Source of the DNA: an uncultured Chloroflexota bacterium | GTDB lineage: Bacteria > Chloroflexota > Anaerolineae > Anaerolineales > UBA4823 | Direction of reading: 5' to 3' | Length of the DNA stretch: 40,760 nt | Assembly (NCBI GenBank): GCA_903871905.1 | Contig: CAIQIV010000508.1 | Span: 1 to 40,760 of the forward strand | Part shown: positions 1-20,798 of the stretch, in pieces | Layout: every line of letters starts with the position of its first letter | Numbering within the stretch: position 1 is the first letter of the stretch | Notes under the pieces: generated by a model | Database searches by the model: none | What the model was told of the DNA's origin: nothing | The model's input: only the letters and a program-made list of their open reading frames with translations | Program-made: the position numbers and the translations under genes

Positions 1-1437
1 CGTCATCAGGTGCTCGTAACCGATGGCGCGAGACCAGGCATGGCGGATCCAGCCCACCGGCTCATGCCCGTGGCGGGCCAGCGCCTCGTAGGGCTTGAAC
101 CAGTTGGGACGCTCCCAACCAGTCTTCTCGCCGAAGGCGGCGCCCAGGTCGCGCAGGCGGTAATAGGTGGGGGAAAGGCGCTGCATGCGGCCGGAGATCC
201 GCTCCTCGCCGGGGTAGTGGATGTCATAGTACATGGTGTAAGTTTCGAGGGTGCGGTCGACGATGGTCTTCTGGCTGGCATAGTTGGAGCCAAAGCGGCG
301 CACATCCAGGCGCCATACATCGTACTCGGGCTGGCCGTCGACGATCCATTCGGCCATCACCTTGCCGATACCGCCGGCTCCGGCCAGGCCGTGGGCGCAG
401 AAGGCGCAGGCGACCCAGAAACCCTTGACCGAGGTCGGGCCCAGCAGGAACTCGCCATCAGGGGTAAAGCCTTCAGGCCCGTTATACAGCTGGCGGATTT
501 CCGCATCGGCGACTGCCGGCACGCGCTTGCAGGAGTTCTCCATCAGCGGGGTAAAGCGGTCCCAGTCAAAGGGCAGCAGCTGGTATTTGAAGTCCTTGGG
601 AATGCCATCCAGGGCGAAGGGGGCTGGATCGCGCTCGTAGCCGCCGGTGGTCAGGCCGCCCACTTCCTCGCGCCAGTAGACCAGCAGGTCGGGGTCGCGC
701 AGGGTGGGGAAGTTGGATTTGATGCCCTCGATAGGCTTGGTGACGATATACAGGTGGGCCATGGGCACCACCGGCAGCATCAGGCCGACCATCTTGCCGA
801 CCTCGCCGCCCCACTGCCCGGCCGCGTTGACCACCACCTCGGTCTCAATCGTGCCGCGGTTGGTGACCACTGCCGTGACGCGCCCATGCTTGACAGTGAT
901 GGATTCGACATCGGTGTCCTCGAAGATGCGCGCCCCGCGGCTCTTGGCGCCGTTGGCCAATGCACGCGTCAGCCCGGTGGGGTCAATAATGCCATCCGTG
1001 GGGGTATAGGCAGCGCCGAACACCCCCTCAATGTCCATCAGGGGGAACATGGCCTGCGCCTCTTTGGGCGAGACCAGCTCCATTGGCATCCCGAAGGAGC
1101 GCGCCATGCCAACCAGGCGCTTCAGGTCTTCCATGCGCTCGGGCGAGGAGGCCAGGCGCAGGCCGCCGACCTCGCGCCAGCCGGTGTCCTGCCCGGTCTC
1201 TTCTTTGAGCTTGCGGTACAGATCGGTGCTGTAGAACATCATGCGGGTCAGGTTGGCGTCAGAGCGCAACTGTCCAACCAGGCCAGCCGAGTGCCAGGTT
1301 GACCCGGCAGTCAGCTCGTGCCGCTCAACGATCACTACATCCTTCCAACCCATCTTGGTCAGGTGGTAGGCGATGCTGCAGCCTCCGACGCCGCCGCCGA
1401 TGATCACAACTTGCGCATGTGTGGGAAATTCAGCCAT
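1..1437 (-). CDS. FAD-dependent dimethylglycine/sarcosine dehydrogenase-like protein, partial (N-terminal 479 codons)
   Basis: The reading frame starts at 1437 and runs off the left edge with no stop. The N-terminus has a Rossmann FAD motif, VIIGGGVGGCSIAYHL (about residues 11-26), followed by GSTWHSAGL with His49. In mammalian dimethylglycine and sarcosine dehydrogenases the His of this motif carries the covalent flavin. The rest matches the DAO/glycine-oxidase fold, including a late GPTSVKGFWVACAFCAHGLAGAGG segment. It is colinear with the complete 808-residue paralogue at 10591-13017, so a GcvT-like folate domain probably continues outside the window. The expected reaction is oxidative N-demethylation of a secondary or tertiary methylamine with methylene transfer to tetrahydrofolate. 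A GGAG ribosome site lies about 8 nt upstream of ATG. An intrinsic terminator separates it from the CBS gene upstream. The substrate is not shown by the sequence. Confidence 0.88.
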   Translation of the reverse strand, partial: MAEFPTHAQVVIIGGGVGGCSIAYHLTKMGWKDVVIVERHELTAGSTWHSAGLVGQLRSDANLTRMMFYSTDLYRKLKEETGQDTGWREVGGLRLASSPERMEDLKRLVGMARSFGMPMELVSPKEAQAMFPLMDIEGVFGAAYTPTDGIIDPTGLTRALANGAKSRGARIFEDTDVESITVKHGRVTAVVTNRGTIETEVVVNAAGQWGGEVGKMVGLMLPVVPMAHLYIVTKPIEGIKSNFPTLRDPDLLVYWREEVGGLTTGGYERDPAPFALDGIPKDFKYQLLPFDWDRFTPLMENSCKRVPAVADAEIRQLYNGPEGFTPDGEFLLGPTSVKGFWVACAFCAHGLAGAGGIGKVMAEWIVDGQPEYDVWRLDVRRFGSNYASQKTIVDRTLETYTMYYDIHYPGEERISGRMQRLSPTYYRLRDLGAAFGEKTGWERPNWFKPYEALARHGHEPVGWIRHAWSRAIGYEHLMT

Positions 1438-1468
1438 TCTTTTACTCCTTTTGAAATATTGTTTGGTG

Positions 1469-1514
1469 AAAAAATTGGGGTGTCTCCTGCGATGTTTGCT
1501 AAAAGACACCCCAA
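1469..1514 (-). terminator. Intrinsic terminator after the CBS-domain gene
   Basis: Perfect 11-bp inverted repeat, 1475-1485 with 1504-1514 (TTGGGGTGTCT/AGACACCCCAA), 18-nt loop. On the minus strand it is followed by six T (A-run 1469-1474). It lies 11 bp after the stop of the CBS gene and 32 bp before the ATG of the flavoprotein gene. It either ends the CBS transcript or attenuates read-through into the dehydrogenase. Confidence 0.85.
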
Positions 1515-1524
1515 TGGGTTTACA

Positions 1525-2340
1525 TTATTTTTGCCAGAATGAGCCTGGACGGGCCATTTCGGCAACGATGTCGAAGGACGAAATCACGCCCAGCGGCATG
1601 CTCTCCGGCTCTTCGGGATCAATGACCACCAGGCGGTGATAGTGGTTTTCGATCATGGTGTCCACCGCCTGGCGCAGGCTGGCAGTGATGGGGATGGTGA
1701 GCGCCGGGTGCATCACGTCAGCCACCAGGACACCCTCCGGGTCCTTATCCACGCAGTAGGGCAGCAGATCCAGCCCACTCACCTGGCCCAGCGGCTTGCC
1801 ATAGGCATCCACCACCAGCACAGAGCGCCAGCCGATCTGGGTCATGGTGCGGGCGGCCAGGGCGATCGGCGTCCGGTCACGGCATACCAGGATGGCGTCC
1901 GACATGACATCGGCAACCGTTGCTGCGTGCACCGTCAAGGCCGCCGCCTCGGCCAGCTCAGCCACAAAGTCAGACACAGAGAGGATGCCCACCCGTTTGC
2001 CGCGATCCAGCACCAACAGGCGCGAGATATCCTCATCCAGCATGCGCCGCGCTGCTTCCGAGGCGGGGAAAGAGGCTTCGATCGTGTTGATCGGGCTGGA
2101 CATCAGGTCGCCGGCAGTCAGGTTGCGCATGGTTTCCATGCTTTCCTGGTCAGCCGACAGCCATTCCCCAGCCAACAGGTCGAAGTCGGTGATGATCCCC
2201 TGAGAGCGCCCATCCCGATCGGTCACCACCAGTGAATGGACATGGTTTTGGTTCAGCATCACAGCCACCTGTCCCAGCGTGGCATCAGGCCGGCAGGCAA
2301 TCACACCCGCATGCATTAAGTCTCGAACAGTTTTTTCCAT
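1525..2340 (-). CDS. Protein with four CBS domains
   Basis: 271 residues made almost wholly of CBS repeats, at roughly residues 5-60, 75-130, 142-197 and 207-265. Each opens with a VxDVM-like segment (VRDLMHAG, AGDLMSSP, VADVMSDA, VADVMHPA) and closes with a G(I/Q)(I/L/V)S-type segment plus (F/L)D. CBS pairs bind adenosyl ligands such as AMP, ATP or SAM and usually regulate a partner. No catalytic or membrane domain is attached, so this is a stand-alone sensor. The ATG at 2340 has an AGGAG site about 10 nt upstream. It lies downstream of the nucleotidyltransferase-like gene (58-bp gap, no terminator), so the two may be cotranscribed. Partner and ligand are unknown. Confidence 0.9.
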   Translation of the reverse strand: MEKTVRDLMHAGVIACRPDATLGQVAVMLNQNHVHSLVVTDRDGRSQGIITDFDLLAGEWLSADQESMETMRNLTAGDLMSSPINTIEASFPASEAARRMLDEDISRLLVLDRGKRVGILSVSDFVAELAEAAALTVHAATVADVMSDAILVCRDRTPIALAARTMTQIGWRSVLVVDAYGKPLGQVSGLDLLPYCVDKDPEGVLVADVMHPALTIPITASLRQAVDTMIENHYHRLVVIDPEEPESMPLGVISSFDIVAEMARPGSFWQK

Positions 2341-2398: not shown

Positions 2399-3187
2399 TC
2401 AGTGGACCTCGTCCACGTCTTTGTACCACTTGACGCGATCGCCAACGCGCGCCCGCATACGCCAGGCTAAGGGCTTATTTTCCTGGTCTATGCGCGCCAG
2501 GGCTGCCTTGACTTGGTCGGTGACAAGCTCCTTCTGTTCAGCGGTCAGCTGAGGGTAGCCCTGGGCCAGGATTTGCACCTTATTAAGGTTCATGGTAGTG
2601 GTACGCCACAACCCCCAATCCTTAGCGCACAGCAGCGCCACGCGGGCAATGTTGATCGTTTCTTTGTCATGATCACCCAGCGGGTGCTCAAGGAGCAGCA
2701 TGATCGTGTCAATGATATCTTTCTCATTAATCTGCACGATCTGCATCTTTTCCAGTACCATCTCCGCCAGGGGGATGGTGGGGGCATCCACCTCCAACCG
2801 CCCGGACCAGCTGATCGGGTGGCAGAAATCCAGCTTTTCATAGAAAACGTCCACGTGCAGGCCAGAAGGGTGGTTGAAGATCGACCGGTCACCCTCGCTG
2901 ACGATAAACACATCCTTTTCCTCGGCATAGCCCAGGCCTGCCATCAGAACCTTGATCTCTTTTGTTTGTTTGGAATAACCCGCAAAATCAATGTCAGTAT
3001 AGGCGCGCCCCATGGCCTCCTGGATGAACCCATACTTGGGGCAGTGCATTTGGAACGCCAGCGAGCCAATGACTCGCAGCAGCACGCCGGCTGAATTACT
3101 GGCATCGATGATCCGTTTGAGCTCGTTCTCGAATTTCTCTCGCTCAGACTTATCTTGATGACCCATCCCGATCGGACCACTGGACAT
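2399..3187 (-). CDS. Nucleotidyltransferase-fold protein (AbiEii/MNT-like)
   Basis: 262 residues from the ATG at 3187. This start has AGGAG 7 nt upstream and is preferred over an in-frame ATG at 3226 that has no ribosome site. The N-terminal half shows a pol-beta-type nucleotidyltransferase pattern: VIGSLAFQ (Gly41-Ser42), then YTDIDF with Asp65 and Asp67 as metal-binding candidates, then LHVDVFY as a possible third acidic strand. This resembles AbiEii/AbiGii and minor nucleotidyltransferase proteins. No antitoxin-like partner gene is adjacent, so a toxin-antitoxin role is not supported. The C-terminal half is helical and unassigned. The minus-strand promoter at 3324-3352 probably drives it together with the CBS gene. 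The substrate is unknown. Confidence 0.75.
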   Translation of the reverse strand: MSSGPIGMGHQDKSEREKFENELKRIIDASNSAGVLLRVIGSLAFQMHCPKYGFIQEAMGRAYTDIDFAGYSKQTKEIKVLMAGLGYAEEKDVFIVSEGDRSIFNHPSGLHVDVFYEKLDFCHPISWSGRLEVDAPTIPLAEMVLEKMQIVQINEKDIIDTIMLLLEHPLGDHDKETINIARVALLCAKDWGLWRTTTMNLNKVQILAQGYPQLTAEQKELVTDQVKAALARIDQENKPLAWRMRARVGDRVKWYKDVDEVH

Positions 3188-3323
3188 ATAATCGCTCCTA
3201 TATTTTAATAGCAAGGGTTTGAGCACCGTAGCAGGCGGCGCGATTGGCTGTTGTTTGAGGGGGGAACAGTGGGGGTGATCACCGCAAGCAGCGACATCAT
3301 CGATCGATTATACCAGTATTGAG

Positions 3324-3486: not shown

Positions 3487-3489
3487 ACG

Positions 3490-3912: not shown

Positions 3913-5595
3913 ATGTCCAACTATAAAGGAAAATCGCGCGAGGAAATTATCCAGCAGGACATGCGCGACCTGCACAAACTGGGCTACGCCCAGCAGTTGT
4001 TCCGCGAAATGGGTGGTTTTTCGAACTTCGCGGTGTCGTTCTCGGTAATCTCGATCCTGACCGGCGCCATGCTGCTCTACGGCTACGGCCTCAAGTTTGC
4101 CGGCCCGGTGATCAACACCATCGGTTGGCCGCTGGTCTCCATCTTCGTGCTGTGCATCGCCGCCTCCATGGCGGAGATCGCCTCGGCCTACCCCACGGCG
4201 GGCGGCCTGTACTACTGGGCGCACCGCCTGGGCGGCCGGGGCTGGGGCTGGGTGACGGCCTGGATGAACATGGTCGGTCAGATCACCATCACCGCCGGTA
4301 TTGACATCGGCGCGGCTATCTACTTCGTCGGCCTGCTGACGCGCGCCTTTGGCGTCCCGGCGGATGCGCCGGTGCCGGTGTTTGGCACGATCAACAGCTG
4401 GGGCTTCTATGTTTTTGCTATGATCATCATCATGATCCCGCAGATCCTGATCAATATCTTCGGTATCCGCCTGACCGCCATGCTGACTGACTTCAGTGTG
4501 TGGTGGCACATCGGCGGTGTGGTGGTCATGGCTGCCCTGCTGACCTTCTTCGGCAAGTATCACAACAGCTTCAGCTTTGTCATGCAGGCGGTAAACACGG
4601 TCAATCCATTAGATGCGGCGTCGGCCACCTTTGCTGATGGAACAACCGGCCCGGCCTTGGTTGTGGGTACTTTCGTGATGAAGTCCCCGCTCTTCTCCAT
4701 TTTCCCTGGGTTGGTCAATCTCTACAAAGCTGCGCCTTACGCCCTGTGCTTCACACTGGCCTTCCTGCAGGCGCAGTGGACCTACACCGGCTATGATGGC
4801 TCGGCCCACATGGCGGAAGAGACAGTCATGGCCCGCCTGAACAGTGCCTGGGGTATCTTCCTCTCGGTGGCGGTATCGGCCATCGTCGGTTACGTCGTGC
4901 TGATGTCGCTGACCTTCGCCATCCCGAACGGTGATATCGCCGCTACCGCCGGCGACGCTTACCCGGTGCTGTACATCGCCTACCAGGGCTTGAGCGCCTT
5001 TGGCGCCAACCTGATCGCCATCATCGTCTTCGGCGGCATGTGGCTGTGCGGCCTGGCTTCGGTAACGGTAATGAGCCGCATGTGGTTTGCCTTCGCCCGT
5101 GACGATGGCATGCCGGGCTCGGGCCTGATCAAACAGATCCACCCCACCCTGCGCACCCCGGTCAACTCGATCCTGATCACCTGTGTCATCGCTGTCCTGA
5201 CCTGCCTTTACTCCGCGGCGTATTTCGTGGTGACCTCGATCAGCACCATCACCCTGTACATCGCCTACAGCACCCCGACCTTCCTCAACCTGCGCAACAA
5301 GCTGACCAAGAAGGGCGAGTACACCACCCCGGAGAACGCACCCTGGAGCCTGAAGGGCTGGGGGCCGTTGATCAACCTGATCGCTGTGGTTTATACCATC
5401 TTCATCACCATCCTTTTCTGCCTGCCGCCCAACGAGCTGGTGTTGTGGACGATGGTTGGCCTGGCAATCCTGCTGGTGCTCTACTGGCAGTTGTATGAAA
5501 AGAAGATCTTCACCGGCCCCAAGAAAGCCTCCGAAGAGGAGCTCAAGCGCCTGGAGGCCGAGATAGCCGCCAAAGCCAAGGGCAAGGGCGACTAG
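3913..5595 (+). CDS. APC-superfamily transporter, amino acid/choline transporter (ACT) type
   Basis: 560 residues, hydrophobic, about 12 membrane segments. The start FREMGGFSNFAVSFSVISIL followed by AEIASAYPTAGGLYYWA is characteristic of the ACT subfamily of APC transporters, which includes choline, GABA and amino acid permeases. A long hydrophilic lysine-rich C-terminal tail follows the last membrane segment. The start is set by GGAGGAG about 6 nt upstream of ATG 3913. It is the first gene after the structured leader and precedes a choline-kinase-like gene, so import of an amine or quaternary ammonium compound is plausible. The exact substrate is not readable from sequence. Confidence 0.88.
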   Translation: MSNYKGKSREEIIQQDMRDLHKLGYAQQLFREMGGFSNFAVSFSVISILTGAMLLYGYGLKFAGPVINTIGWPLVSIFVLCIAASMAEIASAYPTAGGLYYWAHRLGGRGWGWVTAWMNMVGQITITAGIDIGAAIYFVGLLTRAFGVPADAPVPVFGTINSWGFYVFAMIIIMIPQILINIFGIRLTAMLTDFSVWWHIGGVVVMAALLTFFGKYHNSFSFVMQAVNTVNPLDAASATFADGTTGPALVVGTFVMKSPLFSIFPGLVNLYKAAPYALCFTLAFLQAQWTYTGYDGSAHMAEETVMARLNSAWGIFLSVAVSAIVGYVVLMSLTFAIPNGDIAATAGDAYPVLYIAYQGLSAFGANLIAIIVFGGMWLCGLASVTVMSRMWFAFARDDGMPGSGLIKQIHPTLRTPVNSILITCVIAVLTCLYSAAYFVVTSISTITLYIAYSTPTFLNLRNKLTKKGEYTTPENAPWSLKGWGPLINLIAVVYTIFITILFCLPPNELVLWTMVGLAILLVLYWQLYEKKIFTGPKKASEEELKRLEAEIAAKAKGKGD

Positions 5596-5620
5596 TTACA
5601 CCCTTCAAAATAATATTTGT

Positions 5621-5680
5621 AACCGGTTTATCCAGCCGGGCTGGATAAACCGGTTGCCATCCCCGCAGCAACTGCTGCGG
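5621..5680 (+). other. Two tandem intergenic hairpins
   Basis: A perfect 17-bp inverted repeat, AACCGGTTTATCCAGCC (5621-5637) with its complement (5639-5655), is followed by CCGCAGC-AACT-GCTGCGG (5663-5680). No T-run follows either stem, so simple intrinsic termination is unlikely. They sit between the transporter and the downstream kinase gene and could act as a processing or mRNA-stability element. Confidence 0.7.
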
Positions 5681-5714
5681 TAAAGAATCTCGTTCTTTCA
5701 GGAGTATCATATCC

Positions 5715-6623
5715 ATGGGACTGACACTTGAACAGGCGATTGCGCGGGTGCCCGTGCTCGCCAACGCTAAAGAAATTAAAACCAAGCCGCTCACCGGCGG
5801 CATCACCAACCTGAACTTCAAAATTGACGCCGATGGTGTATCTTACGTGCTGCGCATCACCGGCGCCGGTACCGATAAGCTGGGCATCCGCCGTGAGGTG
5901 GAACACCAGGCGAACCTGGAAGCCGGCAAGCTGGGCGTAGCCCCTGAGGTAGTCTACTTCATCGAGCCCGAAGGCTATCTTTTGACCCGTTTCGTGGATG
6001 GGATTAAGGTCCCTCCTGAAGAGATGGTCAAGGATTACAACATCCGTCGGGTGATGAACAAGATCCGCTGTTTCCACCGCAATGCGCCTCCCCTGGCGGG
6101 CGAGTTCAACGTCTTCCGCCGCGTGGAGTACCTGGTGGAAATATCGAAGAGCAACGGCAGCAAGTTCCCGGGCGATTTCGACTGGATCATGAACCGCATG
6201 CACCAGGCCGAAGAGGCCCTGCTCAAGAACCCCTATACCCCCACCCCCTGCCACTGCGACCTGCTCAATCTGAACTTCCTGGATGAGTACGGCGATATGA
6301 AGGTGCTGGACTGGGAGTATGCTGGCATGGGCGATATCTTCTTTGACCTGGGCAACTTCTCCCACCATCACAAGTTCACGGATGAGATGGAAATGACCGA
6401 ACTGCGCTGCTACTTCGGCGACTGCACCCCGGATGTCTTTGCCCATCTCAAGCTGATGAAACCCATGTCGGAGATCCACGAGGCAATGTGGGGTACCACC
6501 CAGACCGGTCTCTCCAAGCTGGATGAAGACTTCCAGGGTTATGCCGATTACTGGTTTGCCCGCGCTCGCATCGACATGCTTGACCCGCGTTGGGACCAGT
6601 GGCTGAAAGACGTAGCCGCCTGA
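5715..6623 (+). CDS. Choline/ethanolamine-kinase-like phosphotransferase (APH fold)
   Basis: 302 residues. The N-terminal nucleotide-binding lobe has LTGGITNLNFKI (about residues 26-37). The catalytic loop PCHCDLLNLNFL has His180, Asp182 and Asn187 in the HxDxxxxN arrangement, and LDWEYAG (Asp199) matches the metal-binding DxE/DFG-equivalent. This is the pattern of LicA/choline kinase-like members of the aminoglycoside phosphotransferase family, which phosphorylate the hydroxyl of a small amino alcohol with ATP. The start at 5715 has AGGAG about 10 nt upstream. It follows the ACT transporter by 119 bp containing two hairpins and is closed by a terminator at 6653-6694. The paralogue at 13096 has an altered catalytic motif. 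Substrate inferred only. Confidence 0.85.
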   Translation: MGLTLEQAIARVPVLANAKEIKTKPLTGGITNLNFKIDADGVSYVLRITGAGTDKLGIRREVEHQANLEAGKLGVAPEVVYFIEPEGYLLTRFVDGIKVPPEEMVKDYNIRRVMNKIRCFHRNAPPLAGEFNVFRRVEYLVEISKSNGSKFPGDFDWIMNRMHQAEEALLKNPYTPTPCHCDLLNLNFLDEYGDMKVLDWEYAGMGDIFFDLGNFSHHHKFTDEMEMTELRCYFGDCTPDVFAHLKLMKPMSEIHEAMWGTTQTGLSKLDEDFQGYADYWFARARIDMLDPRWDQWLKDVAA

Positions 6624-6652
6624 TCCGGCTGGTCCAGATCGCTTGAGTTGAG

Positions 6653-6694
6653 AGTGAGTTCTTGTGGGTATCCTGCTTGCAAGAACTCACTTTT
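6653..6694 (+). terminator. Intrinsic terminator after the first phosphotransferase
   Basis: Stem AGTGAGTTCTTG (6653-6664) with CAAGAACTCACT (6680-6691), 15-nt loop, followed by TTTT. It ends the transporter-kinase unit 30 bp after the stop codon and just before the DeoR promoter. Confidence 0.8.
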
Positions 6695-6709
6695 GCCTTA
6701 AGGTAAAAC

Positions 6710-6738
6710 TTGCAGAATCTTTCGGGTGCACTTATAAT
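6710..6738 (+). promoter_or_regulatory. Sigma70-type promoter for the DeoR-led unit
   Basis: TTGCAG (6710-6715), 17-bp spacer, perfect TATAAT (6733-6738). Predicted start near 6745, about 59 nt before the DeoR ATG. This is the only strong promoter I see upstream of the run of genes to 20798. Confidence 0.75.
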
Positions 6739-6766
6739 TGATTGAATAAGTGAGAAAAATCAATCA
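6739..6766. promoter_or_regulatory. Dyad over the start site of the DeoR promoter (possible operator)
   Basis: TGATTG (6739-6744) and CAATCA (6761-6766) are inverted copies separated by 16 bp and lie directly on the predicted transcription start. This is where a DeoR-type autorepressor could bind. The evidence is one short, imperfectly flanked dyad. Confidence 0.35.
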
Positions 6767-6803
6767 GATTCCCGAATTGGATTAGATATAAGTAGACCCC
6801 CTA

Positions 6804-7601
6804 ATGAATAAACCTCTAATCCCGGCCCAAAGACGAGAGCGAATTCAAGAATACCTGGAAATCCACAATATCGTGCGCATTGGGGATTTGAGCGCCATGC
6901 TGGGCGCCTCAGAGGCCACCATCCGCCGTGACCTGGAATGGATGGAAAGCGAAGGGCTGGTGGAGCGCACCCACGGCGGAGCTATCCTGACCGAGCGTAC
7001 GTTGTTAGAGCCAGAATATCTCCAGCGTGCCCAGCGTTACCCGGAAGAGAAGCGCAAGATCGGCGCCTGTGCTGCTTCTATGATCAACGATGGGGACATC
7101 ATTTTTATCAATGGTGGCACCACTTCTACCCAGGTCATGCGCCACATCCGTGGGCATGCCGGGATTACCGTAATCACCAATAACCTGACCGCTGCCCTGG
7201 AAGTGGGCGCGGCGGGCTTTAAACTGATCCTGCTGGGTGGGGATTTTCAGTCCACGTCGAACGCCACCGCCGGGCGTTTTGCTATAGAGAATCTGAACAA
7301 AGTTTATGCCAGCAAGGCCTTTATCAGCGTGGATGGGTTCAGCCTGAAATATGGCTTCACCGTGCCCACCAACGCTGAGGCCGAGATCATTGGCTGCATG
7401 GTGGAGCGAACTCATGGGGTAGTCAGCCTGATGGCCGATCACTCCAAGTGGGGGGTAGTGTCCAATTTCCAGGTAGCGGCCATTGACCAGGTGCACCGTT
7501 TCATCACAGACGATCAGATCAGTCAGCACGCCCTGGATGCCCTGGCGGCGCGCTCCATTGAGGTTGTTATCGCTGGCGAATCGAACGCCAGATCTGGCTA
7601 G
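6804..7601 (+). CDS. DeoR/GlpR-family transcriptional regulator
   Basis: 265 residues. The N-terminal DeoR winged helix has RRERIQEYLEIHNIVRIGDL and ASEATIRRDLEWMESEGLVERTHGGA (about residues 10-60), the classic family signature. The C-terminal DeoR sensor domain starts near residue 80 (EEKRKIGACA) and includes the phosphosugar-site-like INGGTTSTQ and ITNNL segments. DeoR regulators normally repress catabolic operons and are released by a phosphorylated intermediate. That fits a locus encoding small-molecule kinases. No good Shine-Dalgarno precedes ATG 6804. It is first in a plus-strand run and probably controls itself and the genes to about 20798. Confidence 0.92.
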   Translation: MNKPLIPAQRRERIQEYLEIHNIVRIGDLSAMLGASEATIRRDLEWMESEGLVERTHGGAILTERTLLEPEYLQRAQRYPEEKRKIGACAASMINDGDIIFINGGTTSTQVMRHIRGHAGITVITNNLTAALEVGAAGFKLILLGGDFQSTSNATAGRFAIENLNKVYASKAFISVDGFSLKYGFTVPTNAEAEIIGCMVERTHGVVSLMADHSKWGVVSNFQVAAIDQVHRFITDDQISQHALDALAARSIEVVIAGESNARSG

Positions 7602-7642
7602 CGCGCTGCTGGCGCAGCATCATTCCCCCAGGAGGTAGTTGC

Positions 7643-8644: not shown

Positions 8645-8794
8645 CAAGGGTGCGTGCCTGCACAGCGTATTGGAGCCTTGTAGAAGAGAGAGGAGGTAGT
8701 TTTCTTGGGATAATGTGAGATGGCGTACAGATTCTGATGCAATCAAAACAATGCAGATAAATTAAGATACTCTTTTGCTGATGGAGGAACAAAG

Positions 8795-13017: not shown

Positions 13018-13030
13018 ATTGGGACGCCAC

Positions 13031-13065
13031 ATGTGCTCTTGCGGCCTGAGGTCGCAAGAGCACAT
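13031..13065 (+). terminator. Strong hairpin after the dehydrogenase (weak terminator or processing site)
   Basis: 13-bp perfect stem ATGTGCTCTTGCG (13031-13043) with CGCAAGAGCACAT (13053-13065), 9-nt loop, followed only by CCATTTTAG. The poor T-run suggests incomplete termination between dehydrogenase and second phosphotransferase. Confidence 0.45.
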
Positions 13066-13095
13066 CCATTTTAGATATAGTTTACGGAGTGAAGC

Positions 13096-13998
13096 ATGTC
13101 GGTCACGATTGAGACGATTATTCAGAAGATTGGGGATTGGCAGGGCAGGCAGGTGGAGGCGAGGGCTCTCAGTGGTGGGTTAACCAATACCAACTACCAG
13201 GTCACGGTGGACGGCACACCTTATTTTGTGCGCGTTCCGGGTGAGAGCACGGACTTGCTGGCGATCAACCGGCAGAATGAATATTACAATTCTAAGGCTG
13301 CTGCCGAGGCGGGGGTGGGTCCTCAGGTGTTATATCATTTGCCAGAGTATGACGTGATGGTTTTGGAATTTATCACCGGTCAGACCATGTCCAACCAGGC
13401 ATTGAGCGCCCCAGGCATGCCGACGCGCATCGCCCAGTCTCTCAAGCTGCTGCATGCCGGGCCGCGTTTTCTGACCGACTTCAATATGTTCCGCGTGACC
13501 GAATTCTACCTGGGCATTGTCAATGAGTACAAGGTGCACATCCCAGAAGATTTTATTGAGCGCATGTCAAAGGTAAAACAGATCGAACAGGCCATGCTGG
13601 TTCACCCCCTTTCCTCTGTTCCCTGCAACAATGACCTGCTGGCGGAGAACTATATTGACGATGGGAAAATGCTGCGCCTGATCGACTTTGAGTACAGCGG
13701 AAATAACGACCCGACTTTTGAACTGGCAAATACCTGCCAGGAACTGCAGTATGATGATGCGCGCATCCAGGAGATGTGCCAGGCCTACTTTGGCAAAGTG
13801 ACGCCTGCTCTGCTGGCGCGGATTAAGCTGAATATGATCATGTCCGATGTAGGCTGGACGTTGTGGGCTGCCATCCAGGCTAAAATCTCGAAAATTGAGT
13901 ATGATTTTTGGGGATGGGCAGTGGAGCGCTGGTCGCGGGCGGTCGAAAAGATGGATTCGCCGGCATTTTCCGGTTGGATCAGTGACGCCTCAGCTTAG
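13096..13998 (+). CDS. Choline-kinase-like phosphotransferase, copy 2, altered catalytic loop
   Basis: 300 residues, APH/choline kinase fold: LSGGLTNTNYQV near residues 26-36, catalytic-loop equivalent PCNNDLLAENYI (Asp180, Asn185) and LIDFEYSGNNDP (Asp197). The loop keeps the catalytic Asp and metal-binding Asn, but the position of the usual His in HxD is Asn178. Copy 1 has the standard His. Related kinases phosphorylate choline or ethanolamine. It sits between the FAD-GcvT dehydrogenase and the Rieske oxygenase. GGAGTG precedes ATG 13096. The substitution may change activity or substrate. Whether it is common in this subfamily cannot be judged from one sequence. Confidence 0.83.
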   Translation: MSVTIETIIQKIGDWQGRQVEARALSGGLTNTNYQVTVDGTPYFVRVPGESTDLLAINRQNEYYNSKAAAEAGVGPQVLYHLPEYDVMVLEFITGQTMSNQALSAPGMPTRIAQSLKLLHAGPRFLTDFNMFRVTEFYLGIVNEYKVHIPEDFIERMSKVKQIEQAMLVHPLSSVPCNNDLLAENYIDDGKMLRLIDFEYSGNNDPTFELANTCQELQYDDARIQEMCQAYFGKVTPALLARIKLNMIMSDVGWTLWAAIQAKISKIEYDFWGWAVERWSRAVEKMDSPAFSGWISDASA

Positions 13999-14031
13999 GC
14001 CTGAAAGGGTTTTTGTGGTTGGAGGATAGAG

Positions 14032-15312
14032 ATGACACATTGGGATAAGCAAAGCCTGTCGCAGGTGGAGCGAGAGAGGCTCCTGGCTCTGATCGCCTCC
14101 CGGCAGCCGGAGCATGGGCTGCCCAGGGCTTTTTACCATGATGACCTGGTATACCAGGCTGACCTGGAGACAGTCTGGCGCCAGGGATGGCTGTTTGCCG
14201 GGCATTCGTGCCAGATCCCCAATCCCGGCGATTATTTCCTGTATGATTTGGACGGCGATTCAGTGATCATTGTGCGCGGCGATGAAGGGCGGGTGTATGC
14301 CCATCACAATGTTTGCCGCCACCGTGGCACATTGATCTGCCTTGAGCCCACCGGCAATGTCAAGCGCTTTGTCTGCCCCTATCACCAATGGTCCTACGGG
14401 CGGGACGGGAAGCTGCTGACGTGGCGCGCCATGCCACCGGATCTGGATAAATCCAGCCTGGGCCTGCATCCGGTCCACGTGCAGGAGGTGGAGGGACTCA
14501 TATTCATCTCCCTAGCTGAGCATCCGCTTGATTTTGACGATGCCTACCAGGTCATCGCCTCGGTGGTGAAACCCCAGGGGTTTACCCGGGCGAAAATTGC
14601 ACTGATCGCCGATTACGATGTACGGGCAAACTGGAAGCTGGTATGGGAGAACAATCGCGAGTGTTATCACTGCAACGTCAACCACCCCCAATATATCCGG
14701 GCAAATTTTGACCATTACAACAGTGATGATACAACCGAGTATATTGCCCGCCGGCTGGAAGCGGTAACCGCGCGCAGCGAGGCAAAATGGGCGGCGTCGG
14801 GGCTGGCAGTAACCCACAAGCACACGGGCATGACTGAATTCCCGGATGTTGAAAACAACATCTGGTATTCGGCTAACCGCACCCCCCTGGTGGAGGACTA
14901 CGTCAGCGAGTCAATGGACGGCCAGCAGGTAGCGCCTCTCATGGGAGATTATACCGATCCAGATGTGGGTACTGTTCGGGTGCGTATGCTGCCCAATTTC
15001 TGGAACCACTCCAGTTGCGACCACGGCGTCACCGTGCGCCTGACGCCTGCTGGAAAGTACCTGACCAGGCTGCGCATGATCTGGGTGGTGGATGAGAAAG
15101 CCCAGGAAGGGGTGGATTATACCCTGGATAAGCTGCTGCCCTTCTGGCAGCTCACGGGCGAGCAGGATTGGGCGCTGTGTGAGAATGCCCAGCACGGTGT
15201 CGATTCGCGGGCTTATGTTCCAGGGCCTCTGTCTCCTTATAAGGAATATAACCTGGACCGGTGGATCCGCTGGTATCTGCGCTGGCTGTCAGATGGTATT
15301 TCGGATCGATAA
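14032..15312 (+). CDS. Rieske oxygenase alpha subunit, glycine-betaine monooxygenase (GbcA)-like
   Basis: 426 residues. The N-terminal Rieske [2Fe-2S] site is complete: Cys95-x-His97 (CRHRGT) and Cys115-x2-His118 (CPYHQW). The catalytic domain has ENNRECYHCNVNHP with His213 and His218, and EQDW with Asp379, the expected 2-His-1-carboxylate iron site. The CPYHQWSY context and overall layout resemble GbcA and other quaternary-amine demethylating oxygenases, which use O2 to remove a methyl as formaldehyde. They need a ferredoxin reductase partner (GbcB-like), and none is encoded in the window. GGAGG lies about 9 nt before ATG 14032. Stachydrine or carnitine oxygenases are alternatives. Confidence 0.87.
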   Translation: MTHWDKQSLSQVERERLLALIASRQPEHGLPRAFYHDDLVYQADLETVWRQGWLFAGHSCQIPNPGDYFLYDLDGDSVIIVRGDEGRVYAHHNVCRHRGTLICLEPTGNVKRFVCPYHQWSYGRDGKLLTWRAMPPDLDKSSLGLHPVHVQEVEGLIFISLAEHPLDFDDAYQVIASVVKPQGFTRAKIALIADYDVRANWKLVWENNRECYHCNVNHPQYIRANFDHYNSDDTTEYIARRLEAVTARSEAKWAASGLAVTHKHTGMTEFPDVENNIWYSANRTPLVEDYVSESMDGQQVAPLMGDYTDPDVGTVRVRMLPNFWNHSSCDHGVTVRLTPAGKYLTRLRMIWVVDEKAQEGVDYTLDKLLPFWQLTGEQDWALCENAQHGVDSRAYVPGPLSPYKEYNLDRWIRWYLRWLSDGISDR

Positions 15313-15322
15313 GGGATTTGTG

Positions 15323-16267
15323 ATGGATCAATTTCGGGTTGCAGAAGTTGTCAGTTTTGGGATGTTGACGCCGGTTGAGATCCTGGTTGTGGACCGCCTG
15401 CCTGAGCATAATACCGGGGCGTTTATCCGCGGCGCCAGTGATTTTATTTTTGATGATGCGGCGATCGTCGCCTGTTTGCTGCGCCAGTGGGATGTGCAGA
15501 GCGGGCTGATCGGCACTGCGGTGGGCGATGACTACCGGGGGCGAAATATTGCCCACCGGTTAAAAGCCCTGGGTGTATTAGGAAAGGTGCGCAGAAACAA
15601 GAATTTTCGCACGCCTTTGGAAGTCGATATCTCGGATGCCACCGGGGCGCGCACCTACTTCTGGCAGCGTGACCCTGAGGTGCTGGATACCCTGGATACG
15701 GCTGACCTTTCGCTAATAAAAGGCGCACGCCTTTTGTATGTCGACTGGTATGACGGCGATCATATTTTGAGAGCAATGGATGAAGCGATCCGCCTGGAAA
15801 TCCCGGTGTTTTTGAACCTGGAACATGGGCATGAGAACCCGGATATCCTGCGCCGCTATGCAGGTCGGGCAACAATCTGCCAGGCGGTGACAGATGCCGC
15901 CCAGAAAGACGGCAGCGATCCGTTAAAGGTGGCGTATAAACTGCTGGATGTGGGGGTGAAGATTGTCCTGATCACCCTGGCTTCTGAAGGCGCGCTGATC
16001 GTCACCCCGGACATGGCGCTGCGCGTCGGCGTCATCCCAATCAAAGCGGTGGATGGCTGCGGCGCTGGGGCTACTTTTGCCACGGGCTTTATCTATGGAT
16101 ATTTGCACGGCTGGCCCCTGGAGGCTGTAGCGCGGTTCGCGACCGTGGCTGCTGGTCTCAAGGTCGCCCAGGTCGGGCTGAAAGTAGATCCGGTGGACCG
16201 GATCCAGGCAATGGCTGCAACGGTAGATGTGCAGCCAATCGAATTGAAGGCGGCAGTGGAATCATAA
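15323..16267 (+). CDS. PfkB/ribokinase-like protein lacking the catalytic aspartate
   Basis: 314 residues from ATG 15323, 10 bp after the oxygenase stop; a longer upstream frame overlaps the oxygenase and is rejected. The ribokinase fold is visible in IGTAVGDDYRG (about residues 63-72), IVLITLASEGALIV (214-227) and the C-terminal anion-hole motif. That motif reads AVDGCGAGATFATGF: the GAGD of active PfkB enzymes is GAGA here, with Ala250 replacing the catalytic base Asp. The N-terminal GG...N sugar-binding motif is also poor (IRGASDFIFDD). It may be a ligand-binding regulator, a degenerate kinase or an enzyme with different chemistry. It lies between the Rieske oxygenase and the MttB-like gene with tight spacing, so its role should belong to this pathway. 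Confidence 0.8.
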   Translation: MDQFRVAEVVSFGMLTPVEILVVDRLPEHNTGAFIRGASDFIFDDAAIVACLLRQWDVQSGLIGTAVGDDYRGRNIAHRLKALGVLGKVRRNKNFRTPLEVDISDATGARTYFWQRDPEVLDTLDTADLSLIKGARLLYVDWYDGDHILRAMDEAIRLEIPVFLNLEHGHENPDILRRYAGRATICQAVTDAAQKDGSDPLKVAYKLLDVGVKIVLITLASEGALIVTPDMALRVGVIPIKAVDGCGAGATFATGFIYGYLHGWPLEAVARFATVAAGLKVAQVGLKVDPVDRIQAMAATVDVQPIELKAAVES

Positions 16268-16310
16268 TCAGGTCACTGCTAACTAATCAAAACACGAACC
16301 AAGGAGCCTC

Positions 16311-17765
16311 ATGATTAATTTTGCCACACTGCTTACACCTGAACAGGTAGATCGAACTCACCAGGCCGCGCTGGAGATCCTGGAGAATGTGGGTTTACTC
16401 GTGCGCAATGCAAAGGCGCGCCGTTATTTTACCCGGCATGGGTGCGTGGTGGACGCTGAAACGCAGATAGTGAAGTTCCCGCGCTCTGTTGTAGAGCAGT
16501 ACCGGGCGGCGATCCCGCCTACCTTTACATTTCGCGGCCGGGATGAGCGTTTTGACCGCACCCTCCCGGAGCAGGGACCGGTGGTGGTCACAGCCAGCTC
16601 AGCCCCCAACCTGATTGACCCGGTGACCGGTGAGGAGCGGCGGTCGACATCTGCAGATATTGCCCGCATTGCTCACCTGATCAATGAGCTGCCGGGTTAC
16701 GATGTCTTTTCCGTTTCGGTGTTGGCTGATGACGCACCAGCGGGCCAGTTCACCCTGTCGCGCGCATTCCCCGCGCTTAAGAACTGCCTGAAACCGGTGC
16801 GCAGCACGGCAATTGATGCACAGGATGCAGAACAGGTGCTGCGCCTGGGCTATTTGATCGCCGGAGGCGAGCAGTCTTACCGGGAGCGGCCGTTTATTAC
16901 CCACCACTTCTGCCCGGTGGTTTCCCCCCTGACCATGGATTTTGACTCGACAGAGATGATCATCTATTTCTGCGAGCAAAAGCTGCCCGTCTATCCCAGC
17001 ATTGTGCCCAATGCCGGTCTGACATCGCCCATGACGCTGGTCGGCACGCTGGCGCAGGGCAACGCCGAATTCCTGGCAGCCGCGGTGCTGATGCAAATGG
17101 TCCAGCCGGGAACACCGCTGATCTATAGCACGCTGCCCACCGTCGCAGACATGCGCGACGGCGCTTACGCCTCGGGAGGGATCGAGTGCGGCATGCTGCA
17201 CATGGCGTTTGCCCAGATGGCTCGCTTCTACAACGTTCCCAGCGGTGGATATATCGGCCTGACCAATGCCAAGATCAATGACGCGCAGTCCGGTTACGAA
17301 ACTGGCCTGTCTTCCGCAGCTGCCTTTCTGGCCGGAGCGGATATGCTCAACATGGGCGGTCTGCTTGATTCGCTGAAGGCCTTTGATTTTGCCAAGGCGG
17401 TGATCGATGATGAGATTGCGATCATGCTCAAACGCGTTAAGCGCGGTTTTGAGGACTTTAGCGACGAGAACCTGGCCCTGGATGTCATCGCCCAGGTTGG
17501 ACCAGGTGGCTCCTTCATGACCAGCAAGCATACGACCCGGCGCATGCGCACCACCGGCCTGTTCCCCAAGATCGCTGATCGCGAGATGCGGGACAAGTGG
17601 ACTGCCAGGGGCAAGCTTGACGCTCATGCCCGGGCCATGCTGCGCGTGAAAGATATCCTGAGTGCCGCCAACCCGGCGGTCTTTCCGCCTGAGCTGGAGA
17701 AACGCATCCGGGATGAGTTCCCGGGACTGGTAGCCGGCGATTCGACGCTGCCTGAGGGCTGGTAG
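16311..17765 (+). CDS. MttB-family (COG5598) corrinoid-dependent methyltransferase, non-pyrrolysine type
   Basis: 484 residues, typical length of the trimethylamine methyltransferase superfamily. The family outline is visible: an LLTPEQVDRTHQAALEILENVGL start, PVVSPLTMDFDS near residue 205, and a C-terminal VGPGGSFMTSKHTTRRMR segment. The frame is open with no internal in-frame UAG, so it is not a pyrrolysine enzyme. Known homologues demethylate glycine betaine (MtgB), proline betaine (MtpB), carnitine (MtcB) or gamma-butyrobetaine (MtyB) by passing a methyl to a corrinoid protein. No corrinoid protein or reactivase gene is present in the window. An AAGGAG site precedes ATG 16311. Precise substrate unknown. 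Confidence 0.88.
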   Translation: MINFATLLTPEQVDRTHQAALEILENVGLLVRNAKARRYFTRHGCVVDAETQIVKFPRSVVEQYRAAIPPTFTFRGRDERFDRTLPEQGPVVVTASSAPNLIDPVTGEERRSTSADIARIAHLINELPGYDVFSVSVLADDAPAGQFTLSRAFPALKNCLKPVRSTAIDAQDAEQVLRLGYLIAGGEQSYRERPFITHHFCPVVSPLTMDFDSTEMIIYFCEQKLPVYPSIVPNAGLTSPMTLVGTLAQGNAEFLAAAVLMQMVQPGTPLIYSTLPTVADMRDGAYASGGIECGMLHMAFAQMARFYNVPSGGYIGLTNAKINDAQSGYETGLSSAAAFLAGADMLNMGGLLDSLKAFDFAKAVIDDEIAIMLKRVKRGFEDFSDENLALDVIAQVGPGGSFMTSKHTTRRMRTTGLFPKIADREMRDKWTARGKLDAHARAMLRVKDILSAANPAVFPPELEKRIRDEFPGLVAGDSTLPEGW

Positions 17766-17802
17766 TCTGTTAGAAATTTACCTGGAAAGAAAGGAATAAG
17801 CG

Positions 17803-18741
17803 ATGAAATTATTTTTTGCGACAGATGTGCACGGATCAGAGATTTGCTGGAAGAAATTTGTCAATGCTGGTAAGTTCTACGAAGCGGATACGTTAATCCT
17901 GGGCGGGGATATGACCGGTAAAGCCATCATCCCGATCATTGCCCAGGGTGGAGATAAGTGGAAAGTCACCTTATTGGAACAGGAGACGCTGCTCAACGGC
18001 AAGGAGGAGGTGGATAAAATGGTCGCCACCATCCAGAACCGGGGGTATTACCCCTACGTGACCGACCCGGATGAGGTGACGCAGATCTCCAGCACGCCGG
18101 GGCGCTCGGATGAACTGTTTTTGCAGGAAGCCATGAAAACAGCTCAACGCTGGATGGAATACGCCGACCAAAAGCTGGCGGGCACCGGGATGAAATGTTA
18201 TGTCTGCCCAGGAAATGACGACATGTTCGAGATTGACGACATTGTGCGCCAGTCCCGGATGGTCACCCTGGCAGAAGGCAAGGTTTTCAATCTGGATGAG
18301 CATCATGAGATGGCCAGTTCGGGCTGGTCGAACCCGACCCCGTGGAACACGCACCGCGAAGAGGAAGAAGGCGCCCTGGAGCGCCGTCTGGAGGCGGTGA
18401 TTTCACAGGTAAAAAATGTGTCGACTGCTGTGTTTAACCTGCATGCCCCGCCTTTTGGCAGCGGGTTGGACGAGGCGCCTGAGCTGACCAAGGACTTGCG
18501 GCCGGCATATGCCGGACGCTCGCTGGTCCCGGTAGGTAGCAAGTCTGTGTTAAAGATGATCGACAAATACCAACCGCTGTTGGGCCTGTTTGGTCATATC
18601 CATGAGGGCAAGGGAACGCGCAAGTATAAAAAGACCTTATGTATCAATCCTGGCTCAATGTATGAGCAGGGGATGCTCCATGGAGTATTGGTGGAGTTAA
18701 AACCAAATAAGATTGGCACTTATGTCCTGACCACCGGATGA
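17803..18741 (+). CDS. Calcineurin-like metallophosphoesterase, copy 2
   Basis: 312 residues. Metal-site motifs: FATDVHGSE (Asp8, His10), LGGDMTG (Asp36), PGNDD (Asn138-Asp139), NLHAPP (His214) and FGHIHEG (264-267). It aligns end to end with copy 1 (7643-8644), sharing KF(I/V)NAG(N/K)FY and SNPTPWNT(P/H)RE, but lacks copy 1's 14-residue N-terminal extension and is shorter before GHIH. The two copies bracket the dehydrogenase-kinase-oxygenase-methyltransferase block, each followed by an APC transporter, as if a phosphoesterase-transporter module had been duplicated. Cytoplasmic; substrate inferred only. AAAGGAA precedes ATG 17803. Confidence 0.88.
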   Translation: MKLFFATDVHGSEICWKKFVNAGKFYEADTLILGGDMTGKAIIPIIAQGGDKWKVTLLEQETLLNGKEEVDKMVATIQNRGYYPYVTDPDEVTQISSTPGRSDELFLQEAMKTAQRWMEYADQKLAGTGMKCYVCPGNDDMFEIDDIVRQSRMVTLAEGKVFNLDEHHEMASSGWSNPTPWNTHREEEEGALERRLEAVISQVKNVSTAVFNLHAPPFGSGLDEAPELTKDLRPAYAGRSLVPVGSKSVLKMIDKYQPLLGLFGHIHEGKGTRKYKKTLCINPGSMYEQGMLHGVLVELKPNKIGTYVLTTG

Positions 18742-18830
18742 TTGGCTGGAAGCGGTTTGCAGGGCAATCAGATGGCGATGATCTGGAAAAGGAGGTGGAT
18801 GGTCTAATAAATCAGTCGGGACGCTGAAGA

Positions 18831-18880
18831 AAGGCTGGACTTTATTTTCATTGCAAATGGTATGACCCAAGGCTGGACTT
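18831..18880 (+). repeat. Two 12-bp direct repeats upstream of the third transporter
   Basis: AAGGCTGGACTT occurs at 18831-18842 and again at 18869-18880. The second copy lies inside a small dyad, CCCAAG-GCTGGA-CTTGGG. The spacing of 38 bp is close to four helical turns minus a few bases. Possible regulator site; no clear promoter recognised beside it. Confidence 0.4.
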
Positions 18881-18914
18881 GGGCGAAATAAACCGCTGAA
18901 AAGGAGAGAACTGA

Positions 18915-20798
18915 ATGAGCCAACCAACATTGTTTGTGCGAAAAGCGAGCGGTCTGGTCAGGTCGTGGTCAGTATTTGATGCCTTCATTTATGCCACCTT
19001 TTCGATCAACCTGATCACCCTCGGCCTGTACATCTTCTCCCAGGCTTACTATATCCAGGGCAACCTGGGAACCGCGGTGATAGTAGGCGGGCTGTTCACG
19101 ATTTTTGAGGTGATTGTGTATGCCAGCCTGATCTCGGCGATGCCGCGGGCAGGCGGTGACTATGTCTGGCAAAGCCGCATCTTAAACCGAGGCATTGGTT
19201 TTGTCCTGGCAGTGACCGGCTGGTGGTTTATCCTTTGGCTGTGGGTGCCGCTGTATGGGCAGATGCTGACTTACCAGGTCTTCACCCCCCTCCTGGCGAT
19301 CCTGGGTTTGAAAGATGCAGCTCTGTGGTTCACCAACGACGCCAACGGTTTGCTGGCTGCATGTATCTTTTTGTGCCTGTTGGTTTTTATTTACATTGCA
19401 GTTGGCATGAAGTGGTATGCGCGTCTGCAAAAAGTGTGCTTCTGGGGTGGAATGCTGGGCCTGGTTTTGGTCTTTGCCTTGCTGCTGTTCAACAGTAACG
19501 AAACATTTGTCGCCAGCCTGAACGAGATGGCGCCAAAGATGTTCGGGGCAACGCCTGGTGATCTGCACGCTGCCACGGTTGCAGCAGGTCAAGCAGCCGG
19601 TGCGGTCAGCACTCCCATTGGGGATATTGCCCTGGGCGCCAGCATGGCGCTGATCCCCTTCCTGGTCTTCTTCAACCTGTGGCCGAACTGGGGCTCAACA
19701 CTGTACGGCGAGGTGCGCGGCGCCAATGACTACAAGCGCAACTTCTGGGGCATGGCGTCTGCCATTATCATCACCGCTCTGTTGGCGCTGGTCTTTTTCC
19801 TGCTGATTGCCAAGACCATTGGCTGGGATTTTTATAATAATGCAAACGGCGCTTTCTGGAACTACACCTGGGGATACGTCACAGAGCAGCCACCACTGCC
19901 GTTCTGGCCTTACCCGGCCTTGTTCGCCGTGTTTATGGTGAAGAGCCCGGCGATCCAATTCCTGATCATCCTGCTCATGTCGCTGTGGTGGTTTGGTTGG
20001 TCCGGAACCGTGTTTCTCAGCTCCACCCGGGTGATCTTTGCTGCCGCTTTCGACCGCATGCTGCCGGAGTGGGTGTCCAAGATTGAGCCGCGCACCCGCA
20101 CCCCCATCGCAGCCTTGCTGATGATGGTGGTCCCCTCTCTGATCATCTCATTTCTCTACGCGTACAACCTGCTCAATTTCCGCAGCCTGACCCTGGATTC
20201 GACCCTGGTGATCTCAGTCACCTTCCTGGGGTCCACGGTGGCGGCGGTGATCCTGCCCTGGCGAGCAAAAGATGTCTTTGATGGCTCGCCGATTGCCAAG
20301 TACCGCATGCCGTCCTGGCTGGGCTGGCTGATCACCATCGTCTATGCTCTGGGGGCTGCTTATCTGGTCATCACTTCGTTTGGCTATGCCTGGACGGTAA
20401 TGACCAACCTGGGCGTTATGGATGGAGTAACCTCCATGCACTACGTGATCGTCATTTTGATGGCGCTTCTGACCGTGGTGAATGCTGCCATGTTGGTGTG
20501 GATCCTGTATTATGTAGGGAAACGCATCATGGCGGGCCAGGCAATGCCATTAATTACCCTGGCCGGTCTGGTCTTCATGCTCTTCCTGGACTGGCTGCTG
20601 GTAGAGTGGCTGTGGGACCCGCATGTGCCGCCATTTGATTTCCCTTATTACGGCATCGGCTGGAAGAACGTCAACTCGATGGTCTTTATGATTGCCAACT
20701 ACGTGCTGGCAGCGCTGATTTACTTTGGCTTCAGCGCTTTTCGCAAGCAGCAGGGCATCGATGTTAACAAGGTCTACAAGGAGATCCCGGTGGAATAG
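18915..20798 (+). CDS. APC-superfamily permease, copy with C-terminal extension
   Basis: 627 residues, about 12-14 hydrophobic segments. It shares with the 8795 permease the opening LFVRKASGLVRSWSVFDAFIYA, SAMPRAGGDYVWQSR and the final IDVNKVYKEIPVE, so the two are paralogues of about 550-630 residues. The extra length is mainly in loops and an added hydrophobic pair before the C-terminus. AAGGAGAG lies about 8 nt upstream of ATG 18915. It is the last gene of the long plus-strand run and is followed by a hairpin. Probably imports an amine or amino acid used by the cluster. Confidence 0.87.
   Translation: MSQPTLFVRKASGLVRSWSVFDAFIYATFSINLITLGLYIFSQAYYIQGNLGTAVIVGGLFTIFEVIVYASLISAMPRAGGDYVWQSRILNRGIGFVLAVTGWWFILWLWVPLYGQMLTYQVFTPLLAILGLKDAALWFTNDANGLLAACIFLCLLVFIYIAVGMKWYARLQKVCFWGGMLGLVLVFALLLFNSNETFVASLNEMAPKMFGATPGDLHAATVAAGQAAGAVSTPIGDIALGASMALIPFLVFFNLWPNWGSTLYGEVRGANDYKRNFWGMASAIIITALLALVFFLLIAKTIGWDFYNNANGAFWNYTWGYVTEQPPLPFWPYPALFAVFMVKSPAIQFLIILLMSLWWFGWSGTVFLSSTRVIFAAAFDRMLPEWVSKIEPRTRTPIAALLMMVVPSLIISFLYAYNLLNFRSLTLDSTLVISVTFLGSTVAAVILPWRAKDVFDGSPIAKYRMPSWLGWLITIVYALGAAYLVITSFGYAWTVMTNLGVMDGVTSMHYVIVILMALLTVVNAAMLVWILYYVGKRIMAGQAMPLITLAGLVFMLFLDWLLVEWLWDPHVPPFDFPYYGIGWKNVNSMVFMIANYVLAALIYFGFSAFRKQQGIDVNKVYKEIPVE

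Follow-up and report, generated by a model that had tools for sequence, protein, structure and literature searches.

What are metallophosphoesterases doing in a gene cluster for the breakdown of methylated amines? The question is raised by a stretch of 40,760 nucleotides (the window), the full length of contig C508 in the metagenome-assembled genome of an uncultured Chloroflexota bacterium (G000; 6.1 Mb, 865 contigs, 92.6% complete, 8.1% contaminated). An earlier note on this DNA had proposed a route in which the substrate is phosphorylated, demethylated and then dephosphorylated, the last step falling to two calcineurin-like metallophosphoesterases (MPEs). Every gene in its list was found in place and intact, save for an FAD protein cut by the contig end. 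Most of them do lie in one plus-strand run, although this measures 16.9 kb (3913–20798) rather than 14 kb. Two minus-strand genes had been missed: one for a protein with four CBS domains and one for a nucleotidyltransferase (NTase) of the pol-beta type, which is the key gene of the window. We report here that the MPEs keep company with this NTase and with APC transporters that bear characteristic terminal peptides (tailed transporters). This three-part core, conserved in bacteria and archaea, is almost certainly a real functional unit. The window has a single NTase for its two transporter/MPE pairs, beside variable catabolic genes that we call cargo. Its relatives are Chloroflexota, mostly Anaerolineales, and an error of binning would leave the argument intact, since related contigs in named Anaerolineales records share its gene order.

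The association was quantified across 301 Chloroflexota genomes. A search with the first MPE of the window (MPE1) gave 59 positive genomes, one of which (G240) contains a fragment only, leaving 58; the NTase profile was found in 62 genomes and a tailed transporter in 54. All 58 MPE genomes carry the NTase (Fisher 8e-58), four genomes have the NTase alone, and the tailed transporter was never found without both of the others. The presence sets were transcribed by hand from match tables, and the profiles drew sequences from some of the positive genomes and from none of the negative ones. The window's own genome has one NTase, two MPEs and two tailed APCs, and so belongs with the three-part group. 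The MPE-positive genomes without a tail are those where a contig ends (G103, G167 and G199) or the transporter is truncated (G166). In this last, complete genome, the transporter gene that neighbours the NTase and MPE breaks off early and passes into an unrelated, STAS-like frame (L068, 11159–11936), a decaying module. Among the NTase-only genomes, G208 and G276 have a 390-residue NTase with an extra N-terminal part, G053 has its gene near a contig end in a genome that is 83% complete, and G279 yields a partial match only. At L190 (9474–10646, minus strand) and L191 (9810–10982, minus strand), in two genomes lacking MPE and tail, the extra N-terminal part of the NTase is by eye of roadblock type; this form is perhaps a side branch with another role. 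Presence is patchy within families: G269 lacks all three components, and its genus includes positive members.

The pattern extends well beyond Chloroflexota. A scan of public genomes placed the MPE also in Actinomycetota, several archaeal groups and one spirochaete. Among 78 further MPE loci, 61 have an NTase within 3 kb and 61 an APC within 3 kb, and tailed transporters were present in 20 of 20 MPE-positive genomes sampled from other groups. Across 121 genomes of the archaeal phylum that includes G303, the MPE, NTase and tailed transporter occupy an identical set of 23 genomes; the MPE matches in these are near-full-length and score at least 281 bits, whereas the best of the remaining genomes reaches 88 bits with a partial match. 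Plasmid records from two organisms not used before provided an independent check. Three neighbouring genes of Halobellus limi encode a metallophosphoesterase, a protein labelled ‘hypothetical’ that is in fact the NTase (E 5.6e-83), and an APC permease with LFVREATGLVR at its start and GVDLDNLHSEIPKD at its end. The MPE of Thermomicrobium roseum likewise has a permease at its side, beginning LFVRQSSGLVR and ending GIDLSLVYREVPAE. The latter organism also has a pair of nucleotidyltransferase-domain and HEPN genes about 2.4 kb from the MPE (L189, 11356–12091), with no match to the module NTase profile.

Do the MPEs follow the demethylation genes as well? Maps of the neighbourhood were drawn from up to 10 kb fetched either side of each MPE. 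Of 62 Chloroflexota MPEs, 50 have an APC as immediate same-strand neighbour; 53 of 137 MPE loci have the NTase and an APC but no kinase, FAD-GcvT protein or MttB. We therefore reject the MPE as an enzyme of the betaine pathway: these loci carry it without any demethylation gene, and its partners are the APC and the NTase. A block of kinase, FAD-GcvT, PfkB and MttB genes recurs in Anaerolineales relatives, but the MPEs do not follow the demethylation genes. No natural fusion of NTase, MPE and APC was seen among the fetched loci, where long open reading frames held one family each. A role in defence was also considered and set aside, the sole PADLOC match being a weak one of the MPE to PDC-S10, with none for the NTase or APC.

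Constant features of these loci are the ends of the transporters. APCs beside an MPE share a near-identical C-terminus, though the remainder of the protein is often only 25% identical. The motif G-[IV]-D-[LI]-x-x-x-[FY]-[RK]-E-[IL]-P-P-E sits at the very end. With a profile of the last 60 residues, matches reaching the C-terminus were confined to genomes with MPE and NTase; matches in three further genomes lacked the tail. A second motif, F-x-R-x-x-[ST]-G-L-V-R, marks the N-terminus of the APCs beside an MPE; a 29-residue profile of this region matched in MPE genomes only (E up to 1e-3), including four whose transporter C-terminus is missing through contig ends or truncation. Among 109 distinct transporters carrying both motifs, the N-terminal motif has Thr at its hydroxyl position in 60 and Ser in 49 and nothing else, this position having been left free in the pattern used to collect them. 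In the C-terminal tail, Phe outnumbers Tyr at the aromatic position (22 Phe and 13 Tyr of 39), and for this reason that Tyr was dismissed as a site of modification. The first transporter of the window, APC1, has neither motif. Membership of the APC superfamily is clear from PF13520 (63 and 53.6 bits against the required 27) and the LeuT/APC fold. In the AlphaFold model of APC2, the fold is confident (mean predicted local distance difference test score (pLDDT) 91), whereas both ends fall below 50 and are predicted to be disordered. Being conserved yet apparently disordered, the ends are candidate peptides for binding or modification, as would fit short linear motifs.

The two enzymes are recognizable at the level of superfamily. 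The NTase had no match in Pfam above cut-off; it scored 12.7 bits against the 31.2 required for PF14907 (NTP_transf_5), and 20 of 21 relatives match that family weakly (best E 1.2e-6). The pol-beta assignment comes from the G[GS]…DxD…D triad, with D78, D80 and D126 invariant in 43 sequences, and from the core fold. The AlphaFold model (pLDDT 91.6) is closest in VIA fold comparison to ANT(2'')-Ia (Z 13.8), LnuA (12.9) and MenT1 (12.6), so that the modelled NTase resembles enzymes that place a nucleotide on an acceptor; cGAS-type (Z 7.0) and CCA-type folds do not stand out in that comparison. The MPEs have the five motifs of calcineurin-like metallophosphoesterases (D-x-H, GD, GN[HDC][DE], H and GHxH), with D22, H24, D50, N152, H230, H286 and H288 invariant among aligned relatives. 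MPE1 and MPE2 are 43% identical and keep all seven metal-ligand positions; motif III of MPE1 reads GNDD, not GNHD. Profile similarity to the LpxH/YfcE/Rv0805 group is weak (E 3e-5 to 5e-3), and sequence queries of the PDB with one MPE or one NTase gave either no match or a spurious one.

What, then, is acted upon? In the archaeal genomes G303, G348, G370 and G439, one NTase is accompanied by six to nine tailed transporters, and in G370 it lies far from both MPE and transporter. Such unlinked NTases in archaea argue against hitchhiking through gene clustering. The neighbouring genes vary from locus to locus (sugar kinases, amidohydrolases, isochorismatase, glutamine-synthetase-like, formamidase, CoA-transferase and aldehyde:ferredoxin oxidoreductase), and the transporter ends stay constant. 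With one NTase for many tailed transporters, varied neighbours and constant ends, the transporter is the likely target, a conclusion that we regard as probable though by no means secure. The explanation we prefer overall is that NTase and MPE, as writer and eraser, reversibly modify or otherwise control the transporter and not its substrate; we see the case for and against it as evenly poised. In its most likely form, which is also the simplest to use every constant part, the C-terminal tail would be a docking peptide recruiting both enzymes, the invariant Ser/Thr at the cytosolic N-terminus would receive a nucleotide from the NTase, the MPE would cut the phosphodiester again, and uptake would thereby be switched reversibly. 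Nucleotidylylation of that Ser/Thr is a tentative proposal, and the full picture of an uptake switch spanning two domains of life, with one NTase governing many transporters, is to be read as possible but somewhat doubtful.

Several points weigh against the writer/eraser scheme. The nearest NTase folds belong to enzymes that modify antibiotics or tRNA, not proteins. Helix capping or phosphorylation could account for the N-terminal Ser/Thr instead, and the C-terminal tail lacks an invariant hydroxyl. Copy numbers are about 1:1:1 in Chloroflexota, which would also fit a substrate-specific set of enzymes, and the Fisher values overstate independence because the genomes are related. Modification, binding and activity of the parts are all things that we infer.

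Four competing explanations were weighed. If the enzymes acted on the imported compound, the NTase trapping it as a nucleotidyl derivative and the MPE releasing it, the transporter ends would recruit them for channelling; the kinship in fold to the small-molecule adenylyltransferases ANT(2'') and LnuA, the copy numbers and the operon linkage all agree with this, but archaeal genomes can pair a single NTase with as many as nine different tailed transporters, and the catabolic neighbours point to unrelated substrates, so that we hold it unlikely. Action of the NTase in trans would suit a soluble nucleotide messenger, made by the NTase, degraded by the MPE and sensed by the tailed transporters or a partner. 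The CBS protein beside the NTase in Anaerolineales and the weak sequence similarity of the MPE to the cyclic-nucleotide phosphodiesterase Rv0805 could be read in the same way. However, ANT, LnuA and MenT are closer to the NTase in structure than cGAS-type cyclases are, and the tails are too short to form a ligand domain, so we judge a messenger improbable.

Phosphorylation of the N-terminal Ser/Thr by an unrelated kinase, with the MPE as phosphatase and the NTase in some other role, draws on the restriction of that residue to Ser and Thr and on the likeness of R-K-x-[S/T] to a basic kinase site; it is very unlikely, as kinases accompany the module in some clades only and the strict presence of the NTase would be left unexplained. 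There remains the route of the earlier note, in which the kinases phosphorylate an imported quaternary amine or amino alcohol, FAD-GcvT, MttB and Rieske proteins demethylate it and the MPEs remove the phosphate. The conserved pairing of kinases with demethylation genes in Anaerolineales, described below, and a published precedent for demethylation of phosphocholine speak for it. The loci with MPE, NTase and APC alone, the fidelity of the MPE to the NTase and tailed APC across two domains, the loss of a catalytic His from the second kinase in Anaerolineales and the lack of a corrinoid protein in the window speak against this route, which we consider improbable.

Table 1. Features of the window, in order of position.
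Feature	Position	Strand	Basis
FAD-dependent oxidoreductase, N-terminal part, cut by contig end; cargo	1–1509	-	PF01266 and PF16350; relatives 810–818 aa
Four-CBS-domain protein; cargo, kept beside NTase in Anaerolineales	1525–2340	-	PF00571 x4; gene maps of relatives
Pol-beta-type NTase; core part 1; catalytic D78/D80/D126 kept	2399–3226	-	Alignments; AlphaFold pLDDT 91.6; VIA fold comparison
APC transporter 1 (APC1), choline/amino-acid type, no terminal motifs; cargo	3913–5595	+	PF13520; TIGR00907 250 bits, below cut-off
Choline-kinase-like protein 1 (KIN1); cargo	5715–6623	+	PF01633 55.7 bits; motif HCDLLNLN read directly
DeoR-family regulator	6804–7601	+	PF08220, PF00455; directly upstream of MPE1 in Anaerolineales loci
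Calcineurin-like metallophosphoesterase MPE1; core part 2a	7643–8644	+	Alignment; PF00149/PF14582 below cut-off
Tailed APC transporter APC2; core part 3a	8795–10453	+	PF13520; AlphaFold pLDDT 91.1; closest solved folds BasC, LAT, AdiC
APC2 N-terminal motif FTRKASGLVR (hydroxyl residue S16)	8825–8854	+	Motif of relatives; low pLDDT
APC2 C-terminal tail GIDVDYAFKEIPPE	10409–10450	+	Tail conservation; mean pLDDT 46 in last residues
FAD-GcvT demethylase; cargo	10591–13017	+	PF01266, PF16350, PF01571, PF08669
Choline-kinase-like protein 2 (KIN2); cargo	13096–13998	+	PF01633 90.7 bits; PDB 3dxq E 1e-41
Rieske oxygenase, GbcA/Stc2 kind; cargo, rare among relatives	14032–15312	+	Profile and structure-sequence matches
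PfkB-family kinase; cargo, paired with MttB	15320–16267	+	PF00294
MttB-superfamily methyltransferase, no pyrrolysine codon; cargo	16311–17765	+	PF06253; glycine betaine methyltransferase 9yce E 7.5e-65
Metallophosphoesterase MPE2; core part 2b	17803–18741	+	Alignment
Tailed APC transporter APC3; core part 3b	18915–20798	+	PF13520; adjoins MPE2 in relatives
APC3 N-terminal motif FVRKASGLVR	18933–18962	+	Motif of relatives
APC3 C-terminal tail GIDVNKVYKEIPVE	20754–20795	+	Tail conservation

Turning to the cargo, the conserved cluster for methylated-amine catabolism that the earlier note described, with kinases beside demethylation enzymes, is real. A kinase gene immediately adjoins one for FAD-GcvT, in the same orientation, in 22 cases; PfkB and MttB adjoin each other in 12, and 26 loci have MPE, NTase, APC, kinase and FAD-GcvT together. 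The recurrent order in Anaerolineales is KIN1 – FAD-GcvT – CBS – NTase, divergent from DeoR – MPE1 – APC2 – KIN2 – FAD-GcvT – PfkB – MttB, found in many genomes (among them L040–L042, L100, L104, L105, L111 and L130); because the block recurs on so many contigs, the arrangement is far beyond chance. The truncated FAD protein at the contig start is probably a second FAD-GcvT, given that complete relatives at the same neighbourhood position have about 810 residues. The Rieske gene is rare (the window, L075 and L110). Its product is nearest to Stc2/GbcA-type structures and scores 378 bits with the glycine betaine monooxygenase model NF058607, short of the equivalog cut-off of 670. The window also gives two matches to GntI (NF041256), which at 243.8 and 205.4 bits lie under that model's equivalog cut-off of 357. 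The MttB protein belongs to its superfamily (PF06253, 293.8 bits, cut-off 25) and has glycine betaine methyltransferase as its closest match, whereas it falls below the pyrrolysine trimethylamine methyltransferase model TIGR02369 (380.7 bits against 525) and its 484-residue frame has no internal stop. Both kinases exceed the PF01633 cut-off of 29 bits, and KIN1 has an intact Brenner motif, HxDxxxxN. In Anaerolineales, Asn replaces the Brenner catalytic His of KIN2 (CNNDLLAENY), where other groups keep it (CHNDLL), and the activity of KIN2 there may be changed or lost.

Kinase action before demethylation has a precedent in Eubacterium limosum, where MthK phosphorylates choline and the MttB-family protein MthB demethylates phosphocholine (PMC12155760); Firmicutes and delta-proteobacteria are the groups named there, and Chloroflexota are not among them. 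This part of the proposed route would thus be a member or variant of a known idea, while dephosphorylation by the MPEs is unsupported. The window resembles the MthK/MthB/MthC/MthA pathway in having a choline-kinase-like protein beside an MttB-family methyltransferase. It differs in having no corrinoid or MthA gene and in the addition of FAD-GcvT, Rieske and PfkB genes, and cannot be assigned to it. The genome as a whole is rich in corrinoid methyl transfer, with 18 MttB-family and 15 B12-binding_2 (PF02607) matches, although none of the latter falls in the window.

Other neighbours were noted in passing. Downstream of APC3, an ABC importer (SBP_bac_6, two permeases and an ATPase; 21162–25135) may belong to the cargo, since the same importer is found near MPE2–APC3 in six further loci (L066, L075, L082, L083, L091 and L179). 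A PhoU_div protein lies between two PHO4 phosphate transporters at 25174–28038, and PHO4 with a 206-residue gene is also seen downstream of MttB in L040–L042, L105 and L130. In some MPE loci (L040–L099), GntR-like regulators, Fe-alcohol and aldehyde dehydrogenases, agmatinase and a beta-eliminating lyase recur, as judged by look, and offer a guide to substrates.

APC transporters import amino acids and amines in all domains of life, and we know of no APC carrier that is switched directly and covalently by nucleotides. The module suggests an undescribed on/off control of nutrient uptake. Through it, two unnamed protein families acquire a partner and a probable target, and the frequent siting of an uncharacterized phosphoesterase beside a permease is accounted for. 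The module also corrects the reading of clusters where that phosphoesterase would pass for a catabolic enzyme, and yields a prediction that concerns one residue, the N-terminal Ser/Thr. If the scheme is true, one NTase can govern many transporters with different substrates. No system of the same composition was found in the searchable open literature, and an earlier description may exist in papers outside it.

Each component has relatives of known structure or function. The MPEs share their metal-binding motifs with LpxH, YfcE and Rv0805 but have a large insertion between motifs II and III; in LpxH and YfcE, as in the MPE, the catalytic His of GNHD is replaced. The solved folds closest to the NTase core, those of ANT(2'')-Ia, LnuA and MenT, have the D-x-D…D triad in common with it, at 11–19% identity, and the NTase family is set apart by a conserved C-terminal helical part (K251, W255, R258 and W267). 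GlnE and GlnD act in nitrogen control by reversible adenylylation and uridylylation, nitrogen uptake being controlled through PII. Together with MntA–HepT they offer a likeness of function only, in that an NTase of pol-beta fold nucleotidylates a protein side chain, reversibly so in GlnE/GlnD; their targets are Tyr residues of soluble proteins, their eraser is no metallophosphoesterase, and transporter terminal motifs have no part in them. The transporters themselves share fold and PF13520 with BasC, LAT1, AdiC and a bacterial CAT homologue, and are distinguished from these by N- and C-terminal peptides that are found only together with the NTase and MPE.

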